Shown one piece after another: positions 1-10,141 of a DNA stretch of 10,141 nt. The stretch comes from Candidatus Aminicenantes bacterium RBG_13_64_14 (lineage in GTDB: Bacteria; Acidobacteriota; Aminicenantia; Aminicenantales; Saccharicenantaceae), in assembly GCA_001773855.1 (NCBI GenBank), contig MEXZ01000010.1, positions 1 through 10,141 of the forward strand, given 5' to 3'. The notes under the pieces were generated by a model that saw only the letters and a list, made by a program, of their open reading frames with translations, did not search any database and was not told the origin of the DNA. The first letter of the stretch is position 1; the number at the start of each line of letters is the position of its first letter. Made by a program: the position numbers and the translations under genes.

Positions 1-471
1 GTCCTTGATGATGGCGATGGAGATGCCCAGCTTCTGCCGCATGCCCTTGGAGAAGTTCTTGACCCGCTGGTCGAAGGCCTTCTCCTGGAGCGAGACCCGG
101 CGCATGACCTGGAAGTAGTCGTTCTTGGCGAGGGCGGTCTTGCCGCCGAGCTTGGCGAAGAAGTCGAGGTTTTGGCGGGCCGTGAAGTTGCCGTAGAGCA
201 TGACGTTCTCGGAGACGAAGGCGACGTACTTCTTGGCCTCGAGCGGGTCCTTGGTGACGTCGATCCCGTTGATGAAGCAGGTCCCGGTCGTCGGCGGGAT
301 GAAGTTCAGGAAGAGGTTGATCGTCGTCGTCTTGCCGGCGCCGTTGGCGCCGAGCAGGCAGTAGACCTCGCCGGGGTAAATGCTCAAGTTCAAGTGGTCC
401 ACCGCCAGGACGCCGTCCTCGTAGCGCTTGGACAGGTCGTCGGCCTTCAGGATGGGTTGCGATGTTGCCAT
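1..471 (-). CDS. ABC transporter ATP-binding protein, ABC-2 exporter type (partial, C-terminus outside window)
   Basis: This is the nucleotide-binding subunit that should power the two permeases encoded just upstream. The 157 visible residues begin MATSQPILKA. They contain the Walker A motif GANGAGKTT (residues 41-49), a Q-loop region reading VSENVMLYGNFT (86-97), and the ABC signature as NFSKGMRQKLGIS (139-151). The relaxed SKGMRQ signature, and Glu where the Q-loop Gln normally sits, are as I recall common in NosF/CcmA-like ATPases that partner ABC-2 permeases. Walker B, the D-loop and the H-loop lie beyond position 1. The start is supported by a strong AGGAGG at 476-481, four bases before the ATG. 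The gene is last in the visible operon, 31 bases after the stop of the preceding permease. It acts on the cytoplasmic face of the inner membrane. The family call is secure, the substrate unknown. Confidence 0.95.
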   Translation of the reverse strand, partial: MATSQPILKADDLSKRYEDGVLAVDHLNLSIYPGEVYCLLGANGAGKTTTINLFLNFIPPTTGTCFINGIDVTKDPLEAKKYVAFVSENVMLYGNFTARQNLDFFAKLGGKTALAKNDYFQVMRRVSLQEKAFDQRVKNFSKGMRQKLGISIAIIKD

Positions 472-502
472 GTTTCCTCCTCGTTGTGAAATGGCCATTT
501 TT

Positions 503-1891
503 TTATCTCACGTCATACCGCGTGAACGAAAAATACGCGGCGGTGAAAAAGATCAGGTTGAACAGGACGAGCAGAATGATGTCGGGGGCGGCCGCCCGCA
601 GGGGGTCTTCGTAGGCCGGGAACACATACCGGAATTTCGGGTAGTCGATCTTCCCGCTCGGACGCGAATCCCCGCCCATCTGGCGGCGCGAGCTTCCGTC
701 CTCGGCTTCGAAAATGTCGCTGAATTGGTACCGGAAGAGGACCTGGAAGAGCTGGATGTAGTGGGCTTTGAGGCTGCCGGAGAAATTCTCGAGGTCGGCG
801 ATCCCGGTATGACAAAAGTCCAGGGCCGCCTGGGTGTAGCTCGAGGCCGGCGACAGGCGGGCGATGTTGAGACTGAGAGTCCGGAGGGCGCCCTTCTGAA
901 GTTCATAATCTGCGTCGAACTTCTGCAGGGTCTGGTCGAGCCGCTCCTCGTAGTCCTTGGCCACGGGTCCCCGGGCCTTGGTGTAGGCGTCCCAATCCCA
1001 TTTGCCCTGCCCCTGCTCCCCGCCGAGATACTTTTTCATGAGCGGGGCCAGGGCCTTGCCCTTTTCTTTCTCGATCTGATTCGTGACCTGGGCCCGGTTG
1101 GCCCGCATGACCTCCTCGCTCGGGACCGGGCGGATGAGCCCGGCGATCGGCTCGCTCGTCCTGGGGATGACGAACGTCAGGAAAATCCAGACGAAGAAGC
1201 TCGCCAAGAGGGCGAGGCTCGTCCGGTGCGTCCGGGTTGAGATGAGCAGGCCGAGGGAGAAGAGGGTTGAAAGGTAGAGGACCGAGAGCGCGAGCAGAGA
1301 TAAGATCCGGACCAGGTTGCCGGCCTCGAAGAGGGGGAAACCCTCGAGAAGGAGAAGCAGCACACCGAGGAGAGTGCTGACCGCGAAGGGAATCATGAGG
1401 ACACTGAAACCGCCAACAAACTTGGCCGCGATCACCGTGCTCCTTTTCGCCGGATTCGAAAGGATTAGCTTGAGCGTCCCGGCTTCCTTCTCGCCGCTCG
1501 CGAGCGTGCCCGCATAGAGGACGGCGAAGAGGCCGAGGAGGAAGCTCGTGATGACGACGAAATCGATCTTCCCGTTGATATTGCTCAGGACCTCGTTCTG
1601 GGCCTGGATCCCCCTGGCGTCCGTCTGGTACTTGGCGAACGTGACCTTTTCCGGAAGCACGCTCTCGAGGCCGATCCCGAAGGTGGCGAGGACGCTCGGC
1701 TCGCGGTAGATAGTCGTTGTATTCTTGGCCTCCTTCTGGGAGGCGTCATATTCGTGAAAGACGTTTTGATAGCTCGAGTAGTTGAGAAGCAGGCTGGTCG
1801 GAATAAGGGCCAGGCAGAGAAGGGAGACGATCAGGAACTTGGGGCTGAGGATTTGGTCGAGAAGTTCTTTTTTAAATACCGTTCGGAACAT
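503..1891 (-). CDS. ABC-2 type transporter permease (large-loop, NosY/DUF3526-like), paralogue 1
   Basis: This 462-residue inner-membrane subunit of an ABC exporter has about six membrane segments: roughly residues 18-36, 108-131, 155-182, 193-217, 224-243 and 436-456. Two large loops lie outside the membrane core, at 37-107 and, charged and helical, at about 245-435. The segment GEKEAGTLKLILSN (133-146) after the second membrane span is the characteristic cytoplasmic motif of this permease group. Residues 338-365 include LSLNIARLSPASS and a D-F-C-H-T-G motif shared with the neighbouring permease. The C-terminus, FTRYDVR, nearly repeats the neighbour's FIKYDVR. The ATG has a good Shine-Dalgarno (GGAGGAGG just upstream). 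Only 15 bases separate it from the preceding gene, so the two are surely cotranscribed. It probably forms a heterodimer with that paralogue. The substrate is unknown. Confidence 0.92.
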   Translation of the reverse strand: MFRTVFKKELLDQILSPKFLIVSLLCLALIPTSLLLNYSSYQNVFHEYDASQKEAKNTTTIYREPSVLATFGIGLESVLPEKVTFAKYQTDARGIQAQNEVLSNINGKIDFVVITSFLLGLFAVLYAGTLASGEKEAGTLKLILSNPAKRSTVIAAKFVGGFSVLMIPFAVSTLLGVLLLLLEGFPLFEAGNLVRILSLLALSVLYLSTLFSLGLLISTRTHRTSLALLASFFVWIFLTFVIPRTSEPIAGLIRPVPSEEVMRANRAQVTNQIEKEKGKALAPLMKKYLGGEQGQGKWDWDAYTKARGPVAKDYEERLDQTLQKFDADYELQKGALRTLSLNIARLSPASSYTQAALDFCHTGIADLENFSGSLKAHYIQLFQVLFRYQFSDIFEAEDGSSRRQMGGDSRPSGKIDYPKFRYVFPAYEDPLRAAAPDIILLVLFNLIFFTAAYFSFTRYDVR

Positions 1892-1906
1892 GGCCTCCTC
1901 CGCCCC

Positions 1907-3349
1907 CTATCGGACATCGTACTTGATGAAACGAACGTAGGCCGCGGCGAACGGGGCGATAAGCCAGAAGGCGAGAGACAACAGGCTCTTCCAGTTCGCC
2001 CTGAAGATATCGCCCAGAGACGTCGGCACGATCGTGAACTGCGGCAGGGTCTTGAAATTGATGGGCTGGACCGAAAACGACAGGCCGGTCTTCCCGCCGG
2101 GATGGACCATGAGCGTCCGTTTGACCTTGCTGAACAGGGCCCCGTCAAGGGTCCCCGCGTGGGCCTGGACGGCCTCGGCGTATTTCGTCCGTTCGAGCTC
2201 GCCCGTGCCGCAGACGTCGGCGACGAACCGGGCGAAGGCCGCGCTGGGCGAGATGAGCGACAGGTTGAGCGCGAGGTTCTGCCGGCGCCGCTTTTGCTGC
2301 CGGTAGGTCTCGTCGATCGCGCCGAGCTGTTGGGCCTTCCGTTCCTTGGCCTCCTGCTCGATCCCGGCCTTGACGGCCTCCCACCTTTTTTTCTCCGGTG
2401 ATTCCGTGTCGTCGGCCGATTCTTTGGGCGCCGACCCGAAGATGAGGTCGTATTGCCGGCCCAGCTCCCTGGCCGTTTCCATGCCGAGGGAGCCGGCCAG
2501 AAGAGACTTCTCCAGGGAAACCTGGGTTTCCGTCCGGATCGGATGGACGATGGCGGCCAGCATATCGCCGAGCTTGGGCATGATCAGCTGGAAAAACGTC
2601 CAGACGAGCAGGATGGCCACGAGTGCCGTGCGCGTTTTCGCGGAGCTCGCCGAGATCATCGTGCCCAGCGTGAAATAAGCGAGTAGGAATACGGAGGCCG
2701 CGAGAAAGATGATGAGGATTTTCGCCGGCATGTCGCCGCCGAAGACCGGAAACGCCCCCAGGATCAGGAAGAGAAGGCCGGCGAGGAAGGCGGCGGCGAA
2801 GGGCGCCCACAGGGCCAGATAGCCGCCGGCGATCTTGCCGGTGAGGATCGTGTCCCGCGGCAGGCGGTTGGAGAGCATGGCCCGCAGGGTGCCCGCCTCC
2901 TTCTCTCCGGCGATGACATCCGAGGCGAAAAGGAGCCCGACCAGGCTGAGGACCATCTGGATGAGAAAAACGAAATCGATCTTTCCCTGGATGGAGAGGA
3001 TGGATTCCTCGCCGCTCGAGGACTCGCCCGGCTTGGTCCCCTCCTGGTTGAACTCGTAGTAGAGCGGCAGGGTCCCCTCGAAGCCCCGCGTGTAGACCGA
3101 CAGAGGGGCTGGCCGACGGAATCCCTTGATGGCCACCGTGCCGGCCATGAGGTCCTGCATGCTGAAGGAAGACACGGCTTCGCCGGCCAGTCGGACCTGC
3201 TCGTCGTAGTCCCGGACTCTTTTCACGTAGTCGAGCTGGTTGACGTACATCCCCAGGGGGATGAGGAGTATGGCGATCAGCCCGAACAACGGGAACCGGT
3301 AGCTGAGGATGTTCTCCAGGATTTCTTTCTTGACGATCGTTTTCCACAT
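1907..3349 (-). CDS. ABC-2 type transporter permease (large-loop, NosY/DUF3526-like), paralogue 2
   Basis: This is the second permease of the operon, 480 residues. Predicted membrane segments lie at about 20-37, 124-146, 172-200, 209-232, 240-258 and 455-473. The cytoplasmic motif GEKEAGTLRAMLSN (148-161) matches that of the downstream permease. The long loop (about 260-450) contains a very charged, probably coiled stretch at 310-358, then LALNLSLISPSA (359-370) and a D-V-C-G-T-G motif (378-383). The protein ends FIKYDVR. The N-terminus MWKTIVKKEI aligns with MFRTVFKKEL of the paralogue, which fixes the ATG although its Shine-Dalgarno is poor (only GAAAG about a dozen bases upstream). It starts 42 bases after the stop of the NEW3-like gene. 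The pair looks like an old duplication forming a heterodimeric exporter core. ABC-2 family assignment is confident; the transported molecule is not known. Confidence 0.92.
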   Translation of the reverse strand: MWKTIVKKEILENILSYRFPLFGLIAILLIPLGMYVNQLDYVKRVRDYDEQVRLAGEAVSSFSMQDLMAGTVAIKGFRRPAPLSVYTRGFEGTLPLYYEFNQEGTKPGESSSGEESILSIQGKIDFVFLIQMVLSLVGLLFASDVIAGEKEAGTLRAMLSNRLPRDTILTGKIAGGYLALWAPFAAAFLAGLLFLILGAFPVFGGDMPAKILIIFLAASVFLLAYFTLGTMISASSAKTRTALVAILLVWTFFQLIMPKLGDMLAAIVHPIRTETQVSLEKSLLAGSLGMETARELGRQYDLIFGSAPKESADDTESPEKKRWEAVKAGIEQEAKERKAQQLGAIDETYRQQKRRRQNLALNLSLISPSAAFARFVADVCGTGELERTKYAEAVQAHAGTLDGALFSKVKRTLMVHPGGKTGLSFSVQPINFKTLPQFTIVPTSLGDIFRANWKSLLSLAFWLIAPFAAAYVRFIKYDVR

Positions 3350-3391
3350 GGCGTCACACTTTCAGAGGGGGTTCATGTTCCCGGCTTTATC

Positions 3392-4879
3392 CTAACGCCG
3401 CGTCAGCTTGATGCCGAAGACGACGATGCCGACGAGCAGGCCGACGAGGAGCAGGACCAGGGCCCCGATGCCGAGGACGTTGGCCTTCGAGGTGATGTGG
3501 ATGCGGACGATCTTATCCTCCGACTCCACGCGCCGGTTGTCGGCGACGGCGTCGGTCCGGATCTTCGGCTCGTAGTCGCCGACGGAAACCCCGGCCGGGG
3601 GCAGGAACTTGATGCTGACGACCTCGTCCTTGTTCTGCTCCAGGGTCGGCAGGAGGTCCGGCTTTATCTCGACGCGCCAGTTGAGCGGCAGGTCGCAGAA
3701 CACCCGGATATTATTAAGTTTCCGGGTGCCCGTATTGCGGATGGTCACGTCCATGCTGATGGCGTCGCCCACCTTGATCTCATGGTAGAGGTTGACGGCC
3801 TGGACTTCGACCTTGGGCACGCCCCGGGGGATGAGTTCGAGCTTGACCGACCCGGCCTTCAGGGCCTCGATCTGCTTAGGGCCGATCCCGGCCGTTCCGT
3901 CGTCCGTCTCGAGCTCGCGGAGTTTCTGCGTCTGGTCGTTGTCGAGGGCCAGGACGAAGAACTCGAGGGGCTTGTCGAGGACGACCTGGTCGTCCGGGTT
4001 CTTGGGGAGGTAGAGCTTGAGCTGGAGTTTCAGGCTGGTGACGCCCTCGCTGAATTTGATCTGGGAGAGACGGGCGCTCGTCGTCGGGTCGCTGAACTCG
4101 TAGGTGATCTGCTGAGGCAGGTTGACGGCCTCGAGCTTGAAGACGTTGGCCTCGCCGGTGAACTTTTCGAGCGACAGATCAAAAGTCGCCGTGCTCTCGA
4201 GGTCGGCTTCCTGGGAGAACTGGGCGGAGTTGACGGTGACGATGTTGGCGCTGACGCCTTTTTGGAGATAGACGGACGTCTCCTCCGTCTTCCCCGAATA
4301 GGAGACGCTGATCTCCAGGTTCTCGACGTCCTTGAGGAGCTGGAAGGTGACTTCGCGCTCGGTCTCGATGGGCATCGAAGCGATGGACCTTTCGTAGGGG
4401 TCGGAGATGATCTTGCCCTCTGTCGATAGCGAGACGTAGACGTCCTTGATCTCCTTCATGAAGTCGAGCGGGAAGAGGTCCTCGGCGCTGATCTTGAGGT
4501 TGGCCAGCTCCTTGAGCTCCTTGGAGGCGTAGCGCAAGGCCACCCGGACGAATTTCTTGCCGCTTCCGTCCTGGAACTTGACCGCGCTGGCGACCGAGAT
4601 CCGGGCTTCGCTGCCCATGAAGCTGATCAGGGCCTGCTGATAGTCGACCTGGGCCAGGAGGTAGGCCGTCTGCCGTTGGGCGAAATCGGCCTCGGAGGTC
4701 AGGCCTTCCTCCTTGAGCTTGAGGTACCGGTCGAAATCGGCCTTTTTCAGCTCGAGTGAGAGCTGAGCGCTCTTCAAGCGGAGGAGCTTCATGCTCTGAG
4801 AATCCTGAGTTTGGGCGGGGATCAATAAGACGAGGAGAAGGACGGCGGTCAGGACGAGGACGAGTTTATGAACGTTCAT
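3392..4879 (-). CDS. Membrane-anchored NEW3-like exported protein with N-terminal adaptor-like helical hairpin
   Basis: This 495-residue protein is first in the ABC operon. It has a signal peptide (residues 1 to about 23), a strongly helical heptad-rich region (about 30-95), an extended beta-rich middle (about 105-320), a NEW3/COG1470-like beta-sandwich near 365-462 (RNTGTRKLNNIRVFCDLP inside it), and a C-terminal membrane segment (about 467-490) ending in the short cationic tail KLTRR. The body should therefore be periplasmic and anchored in the inner membrane. The helical region contains DRYLKLKEEGLTSEADF (50-66). Its R51, L55 and S62 reproduce the spacing of the RLS TolC-docking motif of AcrA/MacA-type adaptors. 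No lipoyl or barrel domains are visible. The ATG is preceded by GGAGG (4887-4891), seven bases away, and by a sigma-54 promoter. It may link the exporter to TolC. The alternative is a substrate-binding or scaffolding accessory protein. The hairpin could also derive from an OEP (TolC-type) helix. Confidence 0.8.
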   Translation of the reverse strand: MNVHKLVLVLTAVLLLVLLIPAQTQDSQSMKLLRLKSAQLSLELKKADFDRYLKLKEEGLTSEADFAQRQTAYLLAQVDYQQALISFMGSEARISVASAVKFQDGSGKKFVRVALRYASKELKELANLKISAEDLFPLDFMKEIKDVYVSLSTEGKIISDPYERSIASMPIETEREVTFQLLKDVENLEISVSYSGKTEETSVYLQKGVSANIVTVNSAQFSQEADLESTATFDLSLEKFTGEANVFKLEAVNLPQQITYEFSDPTTSARLSQIKFSEGVTSLKLQLKLYLPKNPDDQVVLDKPLEFFVLALDNDQTQKLRELETDDGTAGIGPKQIEALKAGSVKLELIPRGVPKVEVQAVNLYHEIKVGDAISMDVTIRNTGTRKLNNIRVFCDLPLNWRVEIKPDLLPTLEQNKDEVVSIKFLPPAGVSVGDYEPKIRTDAVADNRRVESEDKIVRIHITSKANVLGIGALVLLLVGLLVGIVVFGIKLTRR

Positions 4880-4911
4880 GGTCTAGCCTCCATCGGTTTC
4901 GTCCTGGATAT

Positions 4912-4928
4912 TGCAAGGATAGTGCCAA
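4912..4928 (-). promoter_or_regulatory. Sigma-54 (-24/-12) promoter of the ABC exporter operon
   Basis: Read on the minus strand the site is TTGGCACTATCCTTGCA, one base off the RpoN consensus TTGGCACG-N4-TTGCA. The invariant GG (plus-strand 4925-4926) and GC (4913-4914) are exactly ten bases apart. Transcription should begin about twelve bases further on, near 4901. That leaves a leader of about 21 bases containing the GGAGG ribosome-binding site of the NEW3-like gene, which is ideal geometry. The sigma-54 activator encoded at 6415-7806 is the obvious candidate regulator. Confidence 0.88.
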
Positions 4929-4985
4929 GTTGGGGCCTCGGGCATCGCCCCGTTGCCAATGGCCTTAAACTCACGATCGGCCCCC

Positions 4986-5003
4986 TTGGCCTGGAACGTG
5001 CAA
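4986..5003 (+). promoter_or_regulatory. Candidate sigma-54 promoter for the kinase-regulator operon (weaker match)
   Basis: TTGGCCTGGAACGTGCAA keeps the invariant GG (4988-4989) and GC (5000-5001) at ten-base spacing and matches TTGGC and TGCA. It departs from consensus at the A and C after TTGGC and at the first T of TTGC. The predicted start would be near 5013, giving a long leader of about 138 bases before the GTG start codon. It diverges from the minus-strand sigma-54 site with about 57 bases between the two -24 boxes. If real, it implies positive autoregulation of the two-component genes. Confidence 0.5.
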
Positions 5004-5040
5004 TAGCCTATCTAGACGGATACGGACATGAGACGAATTA

Positions 5041-5066
5041 GGTGCCAAGGCGTCACCTTGGTTACC
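5041..5066. promoter_or_regulatory. Dyad CCAAGG-N5-CCTTGG, possible activator-binding site
   Basis: A perfect six-base inverted repeat, CCAAGG (5045-5050) and CCTTGG (5056-5061), flanks CGTCA. Further pairing GGT (5041-5043) with ACC (5064-5066) extends it imperfectly. It lies roughly 145-160 bases upstream of the predicted start of the minus-strand ABC operon, a typical place for an upstream activating sequence of an NtrC-family regulator. It is also downstream of the candidate plus-strand start, so it could act on the kinase leader instead. I found no clear copy upstream of the tolC-like gene, which weakens the assignment. Confidence 0.35.
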
Positions 5067-5073
5067 CACTTCC

Positions 5074-5106
5074 GGGGAAATTGTTTCCCATTTTACCCAT
5101 TTTCCC
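5074..5106. repeat. Small hairpin followed by tandem CCCATTTT repeats in the control region
   Basis: GGGAAA (5075-5080) and TTTCCC (5084-5089) form a tight inverted repeat around TTG. The right arm runs into two direct copies of CCCATTTT (5087-5094 and 5096-5103) at nine-base period, followed by CCCGGATTTTT. On a plus-strand transcript from the candidate sigma-54 start this would sit in the kinase leader as a G/C-A/U stem followed by a broken U tract, somewhat like a weak terminator or attenuator. Function is not established. Confidence 0.35.
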
Positions 5107-5111
5107 GGATT

Positions 5112-5140
5112 TTTACTTTCGCCGGGGTTTCCTGTATCCT
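5112..5140 (+). promoter_or_regulatory. Weak candidate sigma-70-type promoter before the kinase gene
   Basis: TTTACT (5112-5117) and TATCCT (5135-5140) each match four of six consensus positions and are separated by 17 bases. Transcription would start near 5147, almost at the GTG codon, leaving no room for a ribosome-binding site unless the true start is the in-frame GTG at 5163 or later. It could supply basal kinase and regulator expression. The match is modest and could be chance in this T-rich stretch. Confidence 0.2.
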
Positions 5141-5150
5141 CTTAGGATAG

Positions 5151-6404
5151 GTGCAAAGAAGGGTGTCCCGTTTAACGAGTTGGGTCCGCGGGGTTTTCGG
5201 CGGGAAGCGCCGGGGAGTCCACGTCCGGACGATTTTCCGGGAGTTCGCCGAGAGCCTCAACCTGATCGAGGATTTCGAGCAGATCGTCCTGAACCTGCTT
5301 GGGACGATCAAGGAAGCGATCGCCGTGGACCGGCTGGTGTTTTTCATCTATGACAACGACGTCGGACAGTTCCGTGTCGGGGCCGCCTCCGGCTATCCCC
5401 CGGCCGACCTCCGCGAGGTCGTCCTCTCCGGCCAGGACCATTTGGCCAAGTGGCTCAAGGTCAACAAGACCTTCCTCGACGTCCGGAGAAGGCCCGGTGT
5501 CTTCAGCTTCCTGGGAGAGAAAGAAAAAGCGGTTTTCAGCCGCCTCGGCTTCGTCCTCTGCTATCCGATCCTGTCCATGAACCGGCTGATCGGGATCCTC
5601 TGCGCCGGTCCGAAGGGGGACGGCGGGCCCTACTCCGCCGAAGAATCGGCTTTTATCGATTCGCTCATGCCCCAGGCCGGGATCGCCCTCGAAAACGCCC
5701 TGCTCTACAAGCAGCAGAGGGAGCGCTTCCGCCGCATGCTCCGGGCCGACCGGCTGGCCACGATCGGCGAGCTCGCCGCCGGGGCCGCCCATGAGATCCG
5801 CAATCCGTTGACGTCCATCAAGTCGTCCCTCCAGTACCTGGAGTCCCGCTGCCGCGAGGAGACCGAAAAAAAGCTCCTCAGCGTCGCCCTCCGGGAGACC
5901 GACCGGATCGACGAGATCCTGACCGCCCTCCTCTCGTTCTCCCGTCCGTCGGAGATCCGCAAGGAGCCCTGCGACCTCGTCGCGCTCCTCGAGGAGAGCG
6001 TCGCCCTCGTCTCGATCCAGGCCCGGGCCAAGGGCGTCGAGGTCAGGCCGTCGTTCCCCGCGGCGCCGGTCATCGTCAATGCCGACAGGTCCCAGGTCAA
6101 GCAGGTCTTCCTCAACGTCTTCCTTAACGCCGTCCAGGCCATGGACGGCGGCGGGACGCTCGACATCGAGGACATCGTCCTCGAAAACGGGAAGACCCTC
6201 GTCCGCGTCTCCGACACGGGACCGGGCATTTCCGACGAGGATCTGGACAAGGTCTTCGATCCCTTCTTCACGACCAAGAAGGGCGGCACGGGGCTGGGCC
6301 TGTCGATCTGCTACACCATCGTCAAGGCGCACGGCGGAGAGATCGAACTCCGCAGCCGTCTCGGGGAGGGGACGACGGTTCTCGTCACCCTGCCCGCGAG
6401 TTGA
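5151..6404 (+). CDS. Soluble GAF-domain sensor histidine kinase (NtrB-like output module)
   Basis: This 417-residue protein autophosphorylates on histidine and should pass phosphate to the response regulator encoded ten bases downstream. A GAF sensor domain spans about 31-185. The HisKA helix pair follows, with the H-box AAHEIRNPL and phospho-acceptor His214. The HATPase domain shows an N-box QVFLNVFLNAVQ (317-328), G1 VSDTGPGI (353-360), F-box FDPFFTTKK (369-377) and G2 GTGLGLSI (379-386). There is no signal peptide or membrane segment, so the kinase should sense an intracellular cue. The HEIRNPL-type H-box is typical of kinases paired with NtrC-family regulators. The start is uncertain: GTG at 5151 has only AGGA three bases before it, another in-frame GTG sits at 5163, and the first 25 residues are basic and of no recognised fold. 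The function call is firm, the signal unknown. Confidence 0.94.
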   Translation: MQRRVSRLTSWVRGVFGGKRRGVHVRTIFREFAESLNLIEDFEQIVLNLLGTIKEAIAVDRLVFFIYDNDVGQFRVGAASGYPPADLREVVLSGQDHLAKWLKVNKTFLDVRRRPGVFSFLGEKEKAVFSRLGFVLCYPILSMNRLIGILCAGPKGDGGPYSAEESAFIDSLMPQAGIALENALLYKQQRERFRRMLRADRLATIGELAAGAAHEIRNPLTSIKSSLQYLESRCREETEKKLLSVALRETDRIDEILTALLSFSRPSEIRKEPCDLVALLEESVALVSIQARAKGVEVRPSFPAAPVIVNADRSQVKQVFLNVFLNAVQAMDGGGTLDIEDIVLENGKTLVRVSDTGPGISDEDLDKVFDPFFTTKKGGTGLGLSICYTIVKAHGGEIELRSRLGEGTTVLVTLPAS

Positions 6405-6414
6405 GGAGGCCGCC

Positions 6415-7806
6415 ATGGTTCCCCGAATCCTGGTCATCGACGACGCGAAGAGCATCCGCGAGGTCTTCTCCGTCCTGCTGGGCGACCGCGGCTTCCAGGT
6501 GGCCGCCGCGGAGAACGGCCGCCAGGGTCTCGAGAAAGCCCGCCTCTTCGAGCCCGACGTCGTCCTGCTGGATATGAACCTTCCGGACGTTCCCGGGCTC
6601 GAGGTCCTGGCCGGACTCCGCGAGCTCAAGCCCGGCCCGGAGATCATCATCATCACGGCCTTTGGGACCATCCGCAACGCCGTCGAGGCCACCAAGCTCG
6701 GCGCCTACGCCTACCTGGAGAAACCCATCGACAACGACGAGCTCCTGCTCAACATCTCCCGTATCCTGGAGATCCGGAACCTGCGCCGCCAGGTCGAGAC
6801 GCTGCGTTCGGAGCTGACTTCGCGGTACCGGTTTTCGAACATCGTCGGGACGTCGGGCCGGATGAACTCCGTCTTCCAGCTCATGGAGAAGATGAGCCGC
6901 GTCGACGGGACCGTCCTCGTCAGCGGCGAGAGCGGCACGGGCAAGGAGCTCGTCGCCCGGGCCATCCACTTCGCCAGCCCGCGCAAGGACGGGCCCTTCG
7001 TCATCGTCAACTGCGGGGCCGTGCCCCGCGACCTCATCGAAAGCGAATTCTTCGGACACGTCAAGGGGGCCTTCACCGACGCCCGGTCGGACAAGACGGG
7101 CAAGTTCGAGCTGGCCAACACGGGAACGATCTTCCTCGACGAGGTCGGCGAGCTCTCCCAGGACGCCCAGGTCAAGCTCCTCCGGGCTCTCGGCGAAAGG
7201 GAGATCGTCCGGGTGGGCGGGACGAAGACCGTCCCCGTCGACGTCCGGGTCATCGCCGCCACGAACAAGGACCTCGAGGCGGAGGTCGCGAGCGGGAACT
7301 TCCGGGAGGACCTCTATTTCCGTCTGGCCGTCCTGTCCCTCCGGCTGCCCCCGCTCCGCGAGAGAACGGAGGACATCCCGCTTCTCGTCGAGCACTTCGT
7401 TCGCAAGTATGCCCGCGAGCTCGATAAAAACGTCCTCGCCTTCGCCCCCGGCGCCCTGACCCGCCTGGGGGGCTACGGCTGGCCGGGAAACGTCCGAGAA
7501 CTCGAAAACGTCGTCTACGAGGCCATGGTCCTGGCCGAGGGCGAGTGGGTGACCGAGGCGGCCCTTCCGGCCCGGCTCAGGCTCACAGCCGCCGCCGCGG
7601 AGAGCGGGCGGCCGCCTGGCCCGGGGCCGTCGGGGTCCCTCCGGGAGGAGGTCCAATGTGTCGCCGAAAGGCGCGAAAGGGAGCTCATCCTCGAGGCGCT
7701 CCGTCAGGCGGGCGGAAGCAGGACCCGGGCGGCCCGGACCCTGGGCGTCAGCCGCAAGACCCTTTTCAACAAGATGGCGGCCCTCGAGATCCGATGGCCG
7801 GAGTGA
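6415..7806 (+). CDS. Sigma-54-dependent response regulator, NtrC family (receiver-AAA+-Fis HTH)
   Basis: This 463-residue transcription activator opens sigma-54 promoters by ATP hydrolysis. The receiver domain (about 4-115) has the acidic pair D9/D10, phospho-acceptor D53 in LLDMNLPD, T81 and K103. The AAA+ domain (about 140-375) has Walker A GESGTGKE (171-178), the sigma-54 contact loop GAFTDA (218-223), Walker B TIFLDEVGE (238-246), REDLYFRL (297-304) and WPGNVREL (356-363). The C-terminal Fis-type helix-turn-helix is at about 424-455 (SRTRAARTLGVSRKTLFNK). The ATG at 6415 is chosen because MVPRILVIDD begins the receiver fold and GAGGAGG (6403-6409), overlapping the kinase stop, is well placed; reading frame open upstream of it is only shadow of the kinase gene. 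The loop reads GAFTDA rather than the canonical GAFTGA. Likely targets are the sigma-54 promoters at 4912-4928 and 7852-7868. Confidence 0.96.
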   Translation: MVPRILVIDDAKSIREVFSVLLGDRGFQVAAAENGRQGLEKARLFEPDVVLLDMNLPDVPGLEVLAGLRELKPGPEIIIITAFGTIRNAVEATKLGAYAYLEKPIDNDELLLNISRILEIRNLRRQVETLRSELTSRYRFSNIVGTSGRMNSVFQLMEKMSRVDGTVLVSGESGTGKELVARAIHFASPRKDGPFVIVNCGAVPRDLIESEFFGHVKGAFTDARSDKTGKFELANTGTIFLDEVGELSQDAQVKLLRALGEREIVRVGGTKTVPVDVRVIAATNKDLEAEVASGNFREDLYFRLAVLSLRLPPLRERTEDIPLLVEHFVRKYARELDKNVLAFAPGALTRLGGYGWPGNVRELENVVYEAMVLAEGEWVTEAALPARLRLTAAAAESGRPPGPGPSGSLREEVQCVAERRERELILEALRQAGGSRTRAARTLGVSRKTLFNKMAALEIRWPE

Positions 7807-7851
7807 ACGAAAAGCCCCAAGATCCGTATTATATTGATGAGGTCGTGTACT

Positions 7852-7868
7852 TTGGCATCATTCTTGCT
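7852..7868 (+). promoter_or_regulatory. Sigma-54 (-24/-12) promoter of the tolC-like gene
   Basis: TTGGCATCATTCTTGCT matches the RpoN consensus at TTGGCA and TTGCT. The invariant GG (7854-7855) and GC (7866-7867) are exactly ten bases apart. The predicted start near 7879 gives a leader of about 33 bases with GGAGG at 7901-7905, six bases before the ATG. The site sits in the 105-base AT-richer gap after the regulator gene, so the outer-membrane gene can be transcribed independently of the two-component operon. Confidence 0.88.
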
Positions 7869-7911
7869 AATAATGCCTCTTTGAAGTGATTCTAAATATC
7901 GGAGGACGGAC

Positions 7912-9453
7912 ATGAATAAAAAGCGGATCGTTACCTCATTCCTTGTCCTGGCGCTTTTCGGCGGCTTCGCCATCGGCCAGGAGAAGAAAGAAGTTTCCCT
8001 CACCCTCGAGGATTCGATCGTCCAAGCCCTGAAAAACAACCTCAACGTGGCCGTCGAGGTCCTCAACCCCGAGCTGGCCTCGGCCTCGGTTTCGCTGGCC
8101 CGGCAGTATTTCATGCCGACGTTCCAGGTCGACTTGACCGGGAACCGTTACGAACAGCTCTCCACCGGGCCCTTCCAGGCGGCCGACAAGTACATCAACA
8201 AGAGCACGGGCTCGACCGCGTCGATCGCCCAGCAGATCCCCTTCGGCGGCACATTGCAGGCCTCCCTGAGCTACGATTACTCGAAGAGCAATCAGCTCTT
8301 CCAAAGCTACAATCCCTCCTACCAGAGCCGGCTGAACTTCGTCCTGACCCAACCCCTGCTCCGGAACTTCGGCTGGGCCGTCAGCCGGAGGGAGATCATC
8401 GTGGCCTTGAACTCGCTCGATATTTCCCGGAACCAGTTCAAGACCGTCCTCATCAACCTGGTCTACTCCGTCGAAGCGGCCTACTGGAACCTCGTCTACT
8501 CGGTCGAGAACCTTAAGACCCTGCAGCAGGCCCTCCAGAGCGGGCGGGACCTTCTGGCCAAGACCAAGAAGGAGGTCGAGGTTGGGCAGAAGGCGCCGAT
8601 CGAGGTCCTCGACGCCGAAGCCACCGTGGCCCGGCGGGAGGCCGATATCCTCCAGGCCGAAGCCATGGTCAAGCGCAGCCAGGACCAGTTGAAGACCCTC
8701 CTCAATCAGGGCGGGGATCCCTCGGCCAAGGGCCAGAGCCTCCGTCCCGCCGACACGCCCGGCTTCAAACCGTTCACGATCACTCTCGACGAGGCCTTTG
8801 AAAAGGCGATGGCCCGGCGGCCGGACATCGAGGTGGCGAAATCGACGATCGAAACCAAGCGGATCAATTTCCGCTTCGCTAAGAACCAGCTCCTGCCCCA
8901 GCTCGACCTCCAGCTGGTCAAGATGAGCCCTGGCCTCTCCGGCCAGCAGTACATCTATGACCCCGATAATCCCTTTCTCCCCCCCACCCCCGGCGCGCCC
9001 GGCAGCGCCGGCGAGGCGTTCAGCAATGCGTTCAAGTTCCTGTACAACAACTGGACGGCCGGGCTGACCCTGACCATCCCCTTCGGGGACGTCGTCGGCC
9101 GCGCCAGCTACACCTATGCCAAGCTCGACCTCGAGCAGACTCAGGCCCGCCTCAAGAACCAGGAGCAGCAGATCTACCTCGAGGTCAGCGACGCCGTTCT
9201 GACCCTCGAAACCGCGGCCAAGAGCGTCGATGCGTACCGCATCGCCCGCGAGCTGGCCGAGAAGCGGCTCGAGGCCGAGATGAAAAAGCTCGCCGTCGGG
9301 ATGTCGACGAACTATTTCGTCCTCACGTACCAGGACCTTCTGGCCATCGCCCGGTCGTCGGAGCTCAGGGCCCTCGTCGATTACAACGTGGCCGTGGCCA
9401 ACATCGCCAAGGTGACCGGCTCGACACTCGAGACCCGCAACATCACCTTTTAA
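7912..9453 (+). CDS. TolC-family outer-membrane efflux protein
   Basis: This 513-residue trimeric outer-membrane channel subunit lets exporters discharge outside the cell. A signal peptide (about 1-22) ends near AIGQ. It has no lipobox cysteine, so it is not acylated like OprM. Two OEP repeats cover about 30-265 and 290-503. Each begins with the family opening helix: LTLEDSIVQALKNNLNV (30-46) and ITLDEAFEKAMARRPDI (290-306). Each also has the long helix pair, for example KEVEVGQKAPIEVLDAEATV. Strand-forming segments with alternating hydrophobic residues occur around 71-150 and 328-400. A proline/glycine-rich insert (about 352-366) probably lies in a surface loop. The C-terminal phenylalanine (NITF) fits outer-membrane targeting. 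Start and ribosome-binding site are clear. Sharing a sigma-54 promoter type with the divergent ABC operon suggests the two work as one export pathway. Confidence 0.95.
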   Translation: MNKKRIVTSFLVLALFGGFAIGQEKKEVSLTLEDSIVQALKNNLNVAVEVLNPELASASVSLARQYFMPTFQVDLTGNRYEQLSTGPFQAADKYINKSTGSTASIAQQIPFGGTLQASLSYDYSKSNQLFQSYNPSYQSRLNFVLTQPLLRNFGWAVSRREIIVALNSLDISRNQFKTVLINLVYSVEAAYWNLVYSVENLKTLQQALQSGRDLLAKTKKEVEVGQKAPIEVLDAEATVARREADILQAEAMVKRSQDQLKTLLNQGGDPSAKGQSLRPADTPGFKPFTITLDEAFEKAMARRPDIEVAKSTIETKRINFRFAKNQLLPQLDLQLVKMSPGLSGQQYIYDPDNPFLPPTPGAPGSAGEAFSNAFKFLYNNWTAGLTLTIPFGDVVGRASYTYAKLDLEQTQARLKNQEQQIYLEVSDAVLTLETAAKSVDAYRIARELAEKRLEAEMKKLAVGMSTNYFVLTYQDLLAIARSSELRALVDYNVAVANIAKVTGSTLETRNITF

Positions 9454-9475
9454 ATTTATTTTTCGCTGTGCTAAG

Positions 9476-9513
9476 ATGACCGGGTGAATATCCCGGCGGT
9501 CATTTTCACCCGG
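9476..9513. repeat. Overlapping, mutually exclusive inverted repeats between tolC-like and glycosyltransferase genes
   Basis: Two stems compete. ATGACCG (9476-9482) pairs perfectly with CGGTCAT (9497-9503). CCGGGTGAA (9480-9488) pairs perfectly with TTCACCCGG (9505-9513). They share 9480-9482, so only one can form. Neither is followed by a U tract, so a classical intrinsic terminator is not supported, though the second stem could still end or stabilise the tolC-like transcript. The structures lie directly before the TTG start of the next gene and could affect its translation. Confidence 0.4.
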
Positions 9514-9527
9514 CGGCGGGAAACGCT

Positions 9528-10141
9528 TTGAGCCTCTTCCTCGTCGACGCCCGGCGCGAATGGCACGAGAGCCAGCGGCAGGTCCTCTACTTAGCCCGCG
9601 AACTCCGCAAGAAAGGCTACGCGGTTCACCTCGTCCTCGAACCCGGCGGCGACCTTCTCAAGAAAGCGGCGGACGAGGGCTTAGCCGTGCTCCCCCTGCG
9701 CATGCGCGGCCGGATGAAATGGGTCGTCCGGCATGGCTTAGCCCGGGCCATGAAGACCCACGGCTGCCGGCTGGCCCATTTCCACGAGACGCTGGGAGCC
9801 GCGCTCGGGCTGCCCGCGGCGGTTTCGGCCCAGGTCCCCGTCCGCATCCTCTCCCGGCCTGCCGATTCTTCGCCGCTCGAAGGGCGGCTGCCGCTCGCGG
9901 CGGTCGACGCCTTCATCGCCGGCTCCGAAGGGGTCCGCTTGATCCTCGTCCGCGGCGGCGTCGCCGAAGGGAATGTCGAGGTCGTCCCTCTCGGACTGGA
10001 TTTCTCAACATTCACGTCCCACGGACCCGACGATCTCCTCCGCAGGGAGCTCGCCTTGGGTCCGGACGATTTCCTGGCCGGGGTCGTCATCCCCCTCGAG
10101 GACGAACTGGGGCACTGGAATCTTTGCGAGGCGGCGGCGAT
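9528..10141 (+). CDS. Glycosyltransferase, GT4/GT-B type (partial, C-terminus outside window)
   Basis: The 204 visible residues form the N-terminal Rossmann-like half of a GT-B glycosyltransferase, the acceptor-side domain of family 4 enzymes used in lipopolysaccharide or exopolysaccharide assembly. Recognisable pieces are LFLVDARREWHESQRQV at the start, the strand/helix KKGYAVHLVLEPGGDLLKKA (about 29-48), AHFHETLGAALGLPAA (83-98), the VDAFIAGSEGVR segment (126-137) and the linker VEVVPLGLDFSTF (150-162), which mirrors the GT4 pattern V-x-V-x-x-x-G-V-D. The donor-binding domain lies past the window end. The start is the TTG at 9528: the frame is closed by a TGA at 9477 and holds no ATG or GTG before it. 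No good Shine-Dalgarno precedes it. It is probably a separate transcription unit, unrelated to the efflux locus. Acceptor and sugar are unknown. Confidence 0.82.
   Translation, partial: MSLFLVDARREWHESQRQVLYLARELRKKGYAVHLVLEPGGDLLKKAADEGLAVLPLRMRGRMKWVVRHGLARAMKTHGCRLAHFHETLGAALGLPAAVSAQVPVRILSRPADSSPLEGRLPLAAVDAFIAGSEGVRLILVRGGVAEGNVEVVPLGLDFSTFTSHGPDDLLRRELALGPDDFLAGVVIPLEDELGHWNLCEAAA

Follow-up and report, generated by a model that had tools for sequence, protein, structure and literature searches.

How might an ABC-2 transporter encoded beside a TolC-type outer membrane factor be joined to that channel when no membrane-fusion protein (MFP) is found with them? The question is raised by a stretch of 10,141 nucleotides from Candidatus Aminicenantes bacterium RBG_13_64_14 (contig MEXZ01000010.1, 11,658 bases long, positions 1 to 10,141; the window hereafter), in which Pfam and home-made HMMs found no MFP gene, though ABC permeases, an ATPase and a TolC are encoded (Table 1), as a preliminary description made from the sequence alone had recorded. 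Since the contig ends inside the ATPase gene, an MFP gene could lie beyond base 1 in this genome. The same description had put forward the protein encoded at 3392-4879 as an unconventional periplasmic adaptor, on the strength of a short motif, R-x3-L-x6-S, in a helical stretch near its N-terminus.

Table 1. Features of the window; residue numbers refer to the protein encoded at 3392-4879
Feature	Position	Strand	Basis
ABC ATPase, cut by contig end	1..498	-	PF00005 E 6.3e-21
Second ABC-2 permease	503..1891	-	PF12679 E 2.6e-29
ABC-2 permease	1907..3349	-	PF12679 E 3.7e-32, DUF3526; hydropathy; model; NosY best PDB match
Hairpin-NEW3 protein, candidate periplasmic adaptor	3392..4879	-	ORF, 495 aa; PF10633 E 2.7e-9
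C-terminal transmembrane helix, residues 468-494	3398..3478	-	AlphaFold2; hydropathy
NEW3 (NPCBM_assoc) domain, residues 371-437	3569..3769	-	
Beta-sandwich (Ig-like) stalk, about residues 91-352	3824..4609	-	model strands; Foldseek, VIA
Hairpin helix 2, residues 63-88	4616..4693	-	AlphaFold2
RLS-type tip motif, residues 51-62 (R51, L55, S62)	4694..4729	-	
Hairpin helix 1, residues 28-57	4709..4798	-	AlphaFold2; hhalign to MFP hairpin
Signal peptide, about residues 1-22	4814..4879	-	sequence; cleavage site by eye
GAF-HisKA-HATPase histidine kinase, probable regulator	5151..6404	+	Pfam
NtrC-type sigma-54 response regulator	6415..7806	+	Pfam
TolC-type outer membrane factor, candidate partner for docking	7912..9453	+	PF02321 E 3.2e-45; adjacency in relatives

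Anatomy of the NEW3 protein and of a neighbouring permease

For the 495-aa protein AlphaFold2 predicted a helix at residues 28-57, a turn at 58-62 and a second helix at 63-88, that is, an antiparallel hairpin close to the helices previously guessed at 30-56 and 66-95, with R51, L55 and S62 at its tip. Mean pLDDT per ten residues was 81-90 from residue 31 to 80, 55 for residues 21-30 and 70 for 81-90; the pTM of the whole protein was 0.56, which makes the arrangement of its domains uncertain. In the signal-peptide region the hydrophobic segment covers residues 1-27 and the model has a helix at 2-18. Two further features named in the preliminary description, the membrane anchor at the C-terminus and the NEW3-like domain, were both recovered, the former as a predicted transmembrane helix and the latter with a score of 37.5 bits against PF10633 (Pfam cut-off 24.4), a family matched at E ≤ 0.01 by 42 of the 42 members of a diverse set.

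What the protein appears to lack is the usual adaptor core. The Pfam models HlyD_D23, HlyD_3 and Biotin_lipoyl were unmatched in the window protein at E ≤ 1, in agreement with the earlier remark that lipoyl halves were missing, and were absent from the families listed for the 42 members at E ≤ 0.01, while five conventional MFPs did match them. The hairpin begins at residue 28, which leaves no room for a first lipoyl half. As for the beta-barrel of adaptors, a Pfam match was absent in the window protein, and fold searches were filled by Ig-like domains: with the whole model, Foldseek and VIA returned mostly tandem Ig-like proteins, and MFPs were absent among the matches listed, a result uninformative on the hairpin. 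Seven of 240 listed homologues come with a precomputed PF25893 tag, which a Pfam scan reproduced in none of them. Among the matches listed the family is mostly named hypothetical or NEW3 domain-containing. One homologue (P0099) is already named AcrA by one source, a name that fits the hairpin, and for three others (P0144, P0152, P0228) one source gives limonene-1,2-epoxide hydrolase, which looks like a misannotation.

The permease encoded at 1907..3349 has six hydrophobic segments and two large loops (about residues 41-121 and 263-455, roughly 80 and 190 residues), which we take as periplasmic. Its model (pLDDT 82.4) makes the longer loop mostly helical, and its best solved matches are the NosY chains of NosDFY (Foldseek E 1e-4, TM-score by query about 0.3-0.4). 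These loops and the NosY matches make a periplasmic platform for the NEW3 protein plausible; they equally support the alternative, weighed below, of a mechanically driven stalk.

Homology of the hairpin and conservation of its tip

Whether the hairpin is related to those of MFPs or to the helices of TolC had been left undecided in the preliminary description, and profile comparison settles that choice. The adaptor model TIGR00999 matched the window protein at E 1.8e-5 over residues 32-83, with a score far short of the model's own cut-off; at E ≤ 0.01 it matched 32 of the 42 members, the best of them at 2.2e-8. Other adaptor models matched 26 (RND_mfp), 17 (MdtN) and 10 (EmrA-type) at the same threshold. 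The OEP model of TolC proteins (PF02321) gave the window protein alone 12.8 bits, below its Pfam cut-off of 22 (E 0.11), and reached E ≤ 0.01 in five members (best 4.7e-4). Searched against the PDB, a 73-member family profile found eight sequences at E ≤ 1 (0.12-0.96, individually weak), every one an MFP matched at the hairpin. The 42-member profile found 15 sequences at E ≤ 5, headed by the MFP 4l8j (4e-4) and followed by 6vej (RND membrane fusion protein), EmrA, MexJ, AcrA, ZneB and a MexC-like protein; further matches were six sialidase/GH20 sequences, aligned to the NEW3 end, and an unrelated receptor (E 2.8). Family profiles also gave short matches in many genomes to ORFs mostly of 350-500 aa, and the five that we checked by Pfam were all MFPs.

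By hhalign the hairpin aligned to a profile of 13 MFPs at 97.6% (E 2.6e-12) and to one of 27 TolCs at 8.0%. Five of the 13 had been chosen for their match to the family profile; the remaining eight, compared separately, gave 95.0% (E 3.5e-8). Controls with kinase, permease, ATPase, regulator and mixed-direction profiles stayed at or below 2.1%, and reversed controls gave 3.7% for TolC against the hairpin and, as expected, 96.3% for MFPs against the hairpin, the latter with a 14-row MFP profile of which one row is a wrong-frame ORF. Column shuffles that preserved the heptads never reached the observed score in 100 trials with either MFP set (maximum 22.7 vs. 76.2 for the 13, and 20.5 vs. 53.2 for the eight). 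Judged from these sequence profiles, the hairpin almost certainly shares descent with the hairpins of MFPs and is far less like TolC; an OEP origin was rejected on the counts of 5 vs. 32 members for OEP and TIGR00999 and on the low TolC alignment.

The tip motif occupies residues 51-62 (RYLKLKEEGLTS; R51 at 4727-4729, L55 at 4715-4717 and S62 at 4694-4696, minus strand), where the preliminary description had placed it. In AcrA, MacA and HlyD the R-x3-L-x6-S positions serve TolC binding, according to PMC3391258, in which MacA with S changed to A retains some activity and HlyD carries T at that position. The pattern occurs once in the 3392-4879 protein, whose composition predicts 0.21 occurrences, and is absent from the seven other window proteins tested; with that expectation the pattern alone is weak, and it is lifted above chance by its position and its conservation. 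Of the 42 members, window included, 38 retain R51, 35 retain L55 and 34 retain S62. Across 68 loci, again with the window (duplicate loci of one genome, the fragments L044, L045, L069 and L107, and L191-L193 being omitted), the counts are 63, 58 (65 for L or M) and 57, so the three residues do not vary freely, and columns 51, 60, 55 and 62 have the lowest entropies of residues 44-75 (0.43-0.86, against 1.64 for the fifth).

The full RLS is present in 43 of the 68 loci, distributed by group as 19/21 in Aminicenantes, 19/24 in the Bacteroidota loci L167-L190, 5/19 in deep Acidobacteriota and 0/4 in the Bacteroidales loci L065-L068, all of which have NLS. In L167-L190 the tip is well conserved, with R51 in 24 of 24. 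In homologue searches RLS stands in all of the best 120 of 1028 homologues of the window protein; among the best 120 of 1069 from a second search, 105 have N at position 51, 10 have S and one has R, 119 keep L55 and all 120 keep S62. In these lists, then, the leucine and serine are general and the arginine is group-specific.

Distribution and gene neighbourhoods

Full-length relatives of the protein are present across several phyla, in a patchy manner. Matches were found in 21 of 60 near relatives; in the class, 21 of 100 genomes had long matches (E ≤ 1e-150) and 96 of 100 matched at E ≤ 0.001, mostly through short hairpin matches. The count for the phylum was 27 of 297 genomes (E ≤ 1e-36), some by partial matches, and that for Bacteroidota 25 of 395 (E ≤ 1e-129); homologue names among the best 120 of 1069 add KSB1, Latescibacteria and B38. 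We collected 72 loci (21 Aminicenantes, 4 Bacteroidales, 20 other Acidobacteriota, 24 Bacteroidota and 3 hairpin-less), after leaving out duplicate loci of one genome and the fragments L044, L045 and L069, and labelled their TolC and MFP genes with home-made HMMs, which distant genes could escape.

TolC lies within about 3.3 kb of the NEW3 gene in 18 of the 21 Aminicenantes loci and in all four Bacteroidales loci, the window being among these 22 of 25. Two of the Aminicenantes loci without it (L040, L052) are cut by contig ends, and the third (L039) is a real miss. The two genes share a strand in 11 of the 22 linked loci, and in five TolC overlaps the NEW3 gene by about 4 bp. In the stretches examined the HMMs found TolC in none of the 20 other Acidobacteriota loci (several of them on short contigs, and L107 cut inside the hairpin), none of the 24 Bacteroidota loci and none of the 3 hairpin-less loci. 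The proposal of an unconventional adaptor is partly supported, by the predicted hairpin, its MFP homology and its conserved tip. A reading in which TolC is the only partner is weakened twice, by the 44 loci that keep the hairpin and showed no TolC gene in the stretches examined, and by the replacement of R51 (mostly by N) in the Bacteroidales-type members, of which the four loci examined are TolC-linked. OEPs are encoded elsewhere in all 46 genomes checked, 43 of which have a hairpin-type locus lacking adjacent TolC, a result that does not discriminate.

Identity between the linked TolCs of Aminicenantes and Bacteroidales is 20%, which had raised independent recruitment of two TolC types; we dropped this, since TolC outpaces NEW3 divergence within Aminicenantes (about 41-45% vs. 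about 72% identity) and a fast-evolving orthologue explains the figure. The helix-turn tips are of TGD/NGD type in the four linked TolCs from Bacteroidales and of VG/IG type in those from Aminicenantes; the TGD/NGD tips fall in the same loci as N51 of the NEW3 protein, a coincidence that spans only two groups.

A conventional MFP was found in five of the 72 loci, 5-7 kb downstream in L034-L037 and 7 kb upstream in L167, and so is not the constant companion of this gene. The gene next in line has NHL/propeller matches in L036 and a weak TolB-like match only in L034 (two loci scanned), and a gene on the opposite strand lies between cassette and MFP in L034, L036 and L037, not in L035. Each of the 11 TolC-linked genomes tested has conventional MFPs encoded at other places, and the window's own genome encodes them too, so that one could act in trans.

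Directly upstream of the NEW3 gene, 19 of the 24 Bacteroidota loci L167-L190 encode a protein of 176-281 aa (e.g., L176:10596-11336), with PDZ domains in four of the four scanned. Its gene takes the position that TolC occupies in other loci, and the histidine kinase and response regulator genes and a NEW3-ATPase-Perm-Perm cassette are often next to it. In a tree of 68 proteins (arbitrary root, some long branches, deep branches without resolution, 23 ungrouped rows uncounted) the TolC-linked rows are separate from the PDZ-labelled rows, a label given to 23 rows (L168-L190), the upstream protein being listed for 19.

Other features of the cassettes may be mentioned. A histidine kinase and an NtrC-type regulator, likely regulators, stand beside many of them in both Aminicenantes and Bacteroidota. 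L032 and L043 have about 6-7 tandem ABC-2 permease paralogues with a single ATPase gene per cluster. The L191-L193 loci have the order NEW3-ATPase-Perm with a NEW3 protein lacking the hairpin, possibly the ancestral state.

Candidate role and known systems

The NEW3 protein is probably an unconventional periplasmic adaptor, linking an ABC-2 transporter to TolC by an MFP-type hairpin carried on an Ig-like stalk. Its C-terminal transmembrane helix would anchor it in the inner membrane beside the NosY-like pair of ABC-2 permeases, its stack of Ig-like domains, NEW3 included, would span the periplasm upward, and at the far, N-terminal end the hairpin, presumably in a multimer, would bring its RLS tip onto the periplasmic tips of the TolC-type channel. 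The transporter would thereby be joined to its outer-membrane exit, with export as the function, by a protein dispensing with lipoyl and beta-barrel domains. For the TolC-linked groups docking onto TolC is the simplest reading, and the one towards which we lean, because the contact residues are kept, TolC is co-encoded, and in most loci no MFP was found co-encoded. For the TolC-less loci we leave room for a TolC encoded elsewhere or for another partner; a hairpin is no proof of TolC docking, since hairpins are also present in Gram-positive adaptors (PMC4446572).

Such a different partner is the chief alternative: the hairpin, though MFP-related, would meet another copy of itself or another periplasmic protein, not or not only TolC, and the stalk would be driven by a NosFY-like ABC module, with TolC linked but separate. 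The Bacteroidota loci, with their small PDZ-type upstream protein and invariant R51, suit this account, as do the NosDFY match of the permease, NosDFY having a periplasmic accessory of its own, and the hairpin-less relatives L191-L193, which likewise adjoin ATPase and permease genes. We nonetheless think it unlikely, if a serious contender, in that the conserved residues are those of the published TolC-contact motif (PMC3391258), and TolC is linked in two phyla, with genes overlapping or abutting in many loci; the OEPs present in every genome checked point the same way, though they do not discriminate.

Alternatively, a conventional adaptor from elsewhere could bridge transporter and TolC, the NEW3 protein aiding only substrate loading or envelope attachment. 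MFPs are indeed at hand in the TolC-linked genomes tested and in the window's own, and L034-L037 carry one downstream, but this account would leave an MFP-type hairpin with a conserved tip without explanation, in three of those four loci an opposite-strand gene separates the MFP from the cassette, the next gene is propeller-type in the two scanned (weakly so in L034), and the HMMs found no MFP gene in 67 of the 72 loci; we regard it as distinctly improbable. That hairpin and motif are unrelated to adaptors, the product of a generic coiled coil or of chance, is scarcely credible. The motif is short enough to be expected 0.21 times per protein of such composition, and family scores for a single protein are weak, yet as controls the shuffles, the reversed profiles and the unrelated families (profiles of TolC, kinase, permease, ATPase and regulator) were all negative, the 73-member profile drew only MFPs from the PDB at E ≤ 1, and the four best conserved columns of the tip region include those of the motif. 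On those three kinds of control we rejected the generic coiled-coil reading.

A broader reading, which we hold in even balance, is that the docking hairpin is portable: transferred from an MFP to a NEW3 stalk of Ig-like domains, it would have founded a second adaptor architecture. This would serve ABC-2 exporters of the NosY-like type in Acidobacteriota, Bacteroidota and other phyla, with a PDZ protein replacing TolC in some clades. A real hairpin-only family would mean that docking onto TolC can be uncoupled from the adaptor core. It would also explain how ABC-2 transporters without an adjacent MFP gene could reach the outer membrane, offer a minimal system from nature in which to study tip-to-tip docking, and suggest what is likely done by a widespread family whose members mostly go by hypothetical or NEW3 domain-containing. 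Among the open-licence PMC papers that our searches listed, none was seen to treat a NEW3 protein as an adaptor for TolC, nor did a hairpin lacking the lipoyl/barrel core appear.

To our knowledge, known adaptors keep the lipoyl/barrel core, and one, BesA, loses the hairpin. According to PMC4446572 the adaptor hairpin extends from the lipoyl domain, and BesA has none. BesA resembles the NEW3 protein as an adaptor missing a module thought essential, and differs in which module that is: BesA is without the hairpin, and the NEW3 protein has the hairpin without the detectable rest (PMC3807786). Within the NEW3 (PF10633) proteins, those of L191-L193 are alike in their NEW3 domain (by Pfam in L192 and L193, the two scanned) and in their ATPase and permease neighbours, and differ from the window protein in that the N-terminal hairpin is absent from the alignment.

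The copper-site ABC system NosDFY is similar in pairing an ABC-2 transporter with a periplasmic accessory and may be so in its permease fold. That accessory has a mechanical role, and NosD has a beta-helix fold; the accessory here is Ig-like with an MFP-type hairpin, and here there is TolC linkage. To MFPs themselves (AcrA, MacA, HlyD, EmrA, CzcB-type) the likeness lies in a homologous helical hairpin with an RLS tip, in the predicted periplasmic location and inner-membrane anchoring, and in linkage of the gene to a transporter and, in two groups, to TolC. Unlike theirs, the hairpin of the NEW3 protein is N-terminal and not inserted in a lipoyl domain, and it precedes an Ig-like/NEW3 body, without detected lipoyl/HlyD domain, that ends in a C-terminal transmembrane anchor. 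If the MFP family is defined by its lipoyl/barrel core, whose lipoyl part we searched for and did not find, the NEW3 protein falls outside it, though it may work like one of its members.
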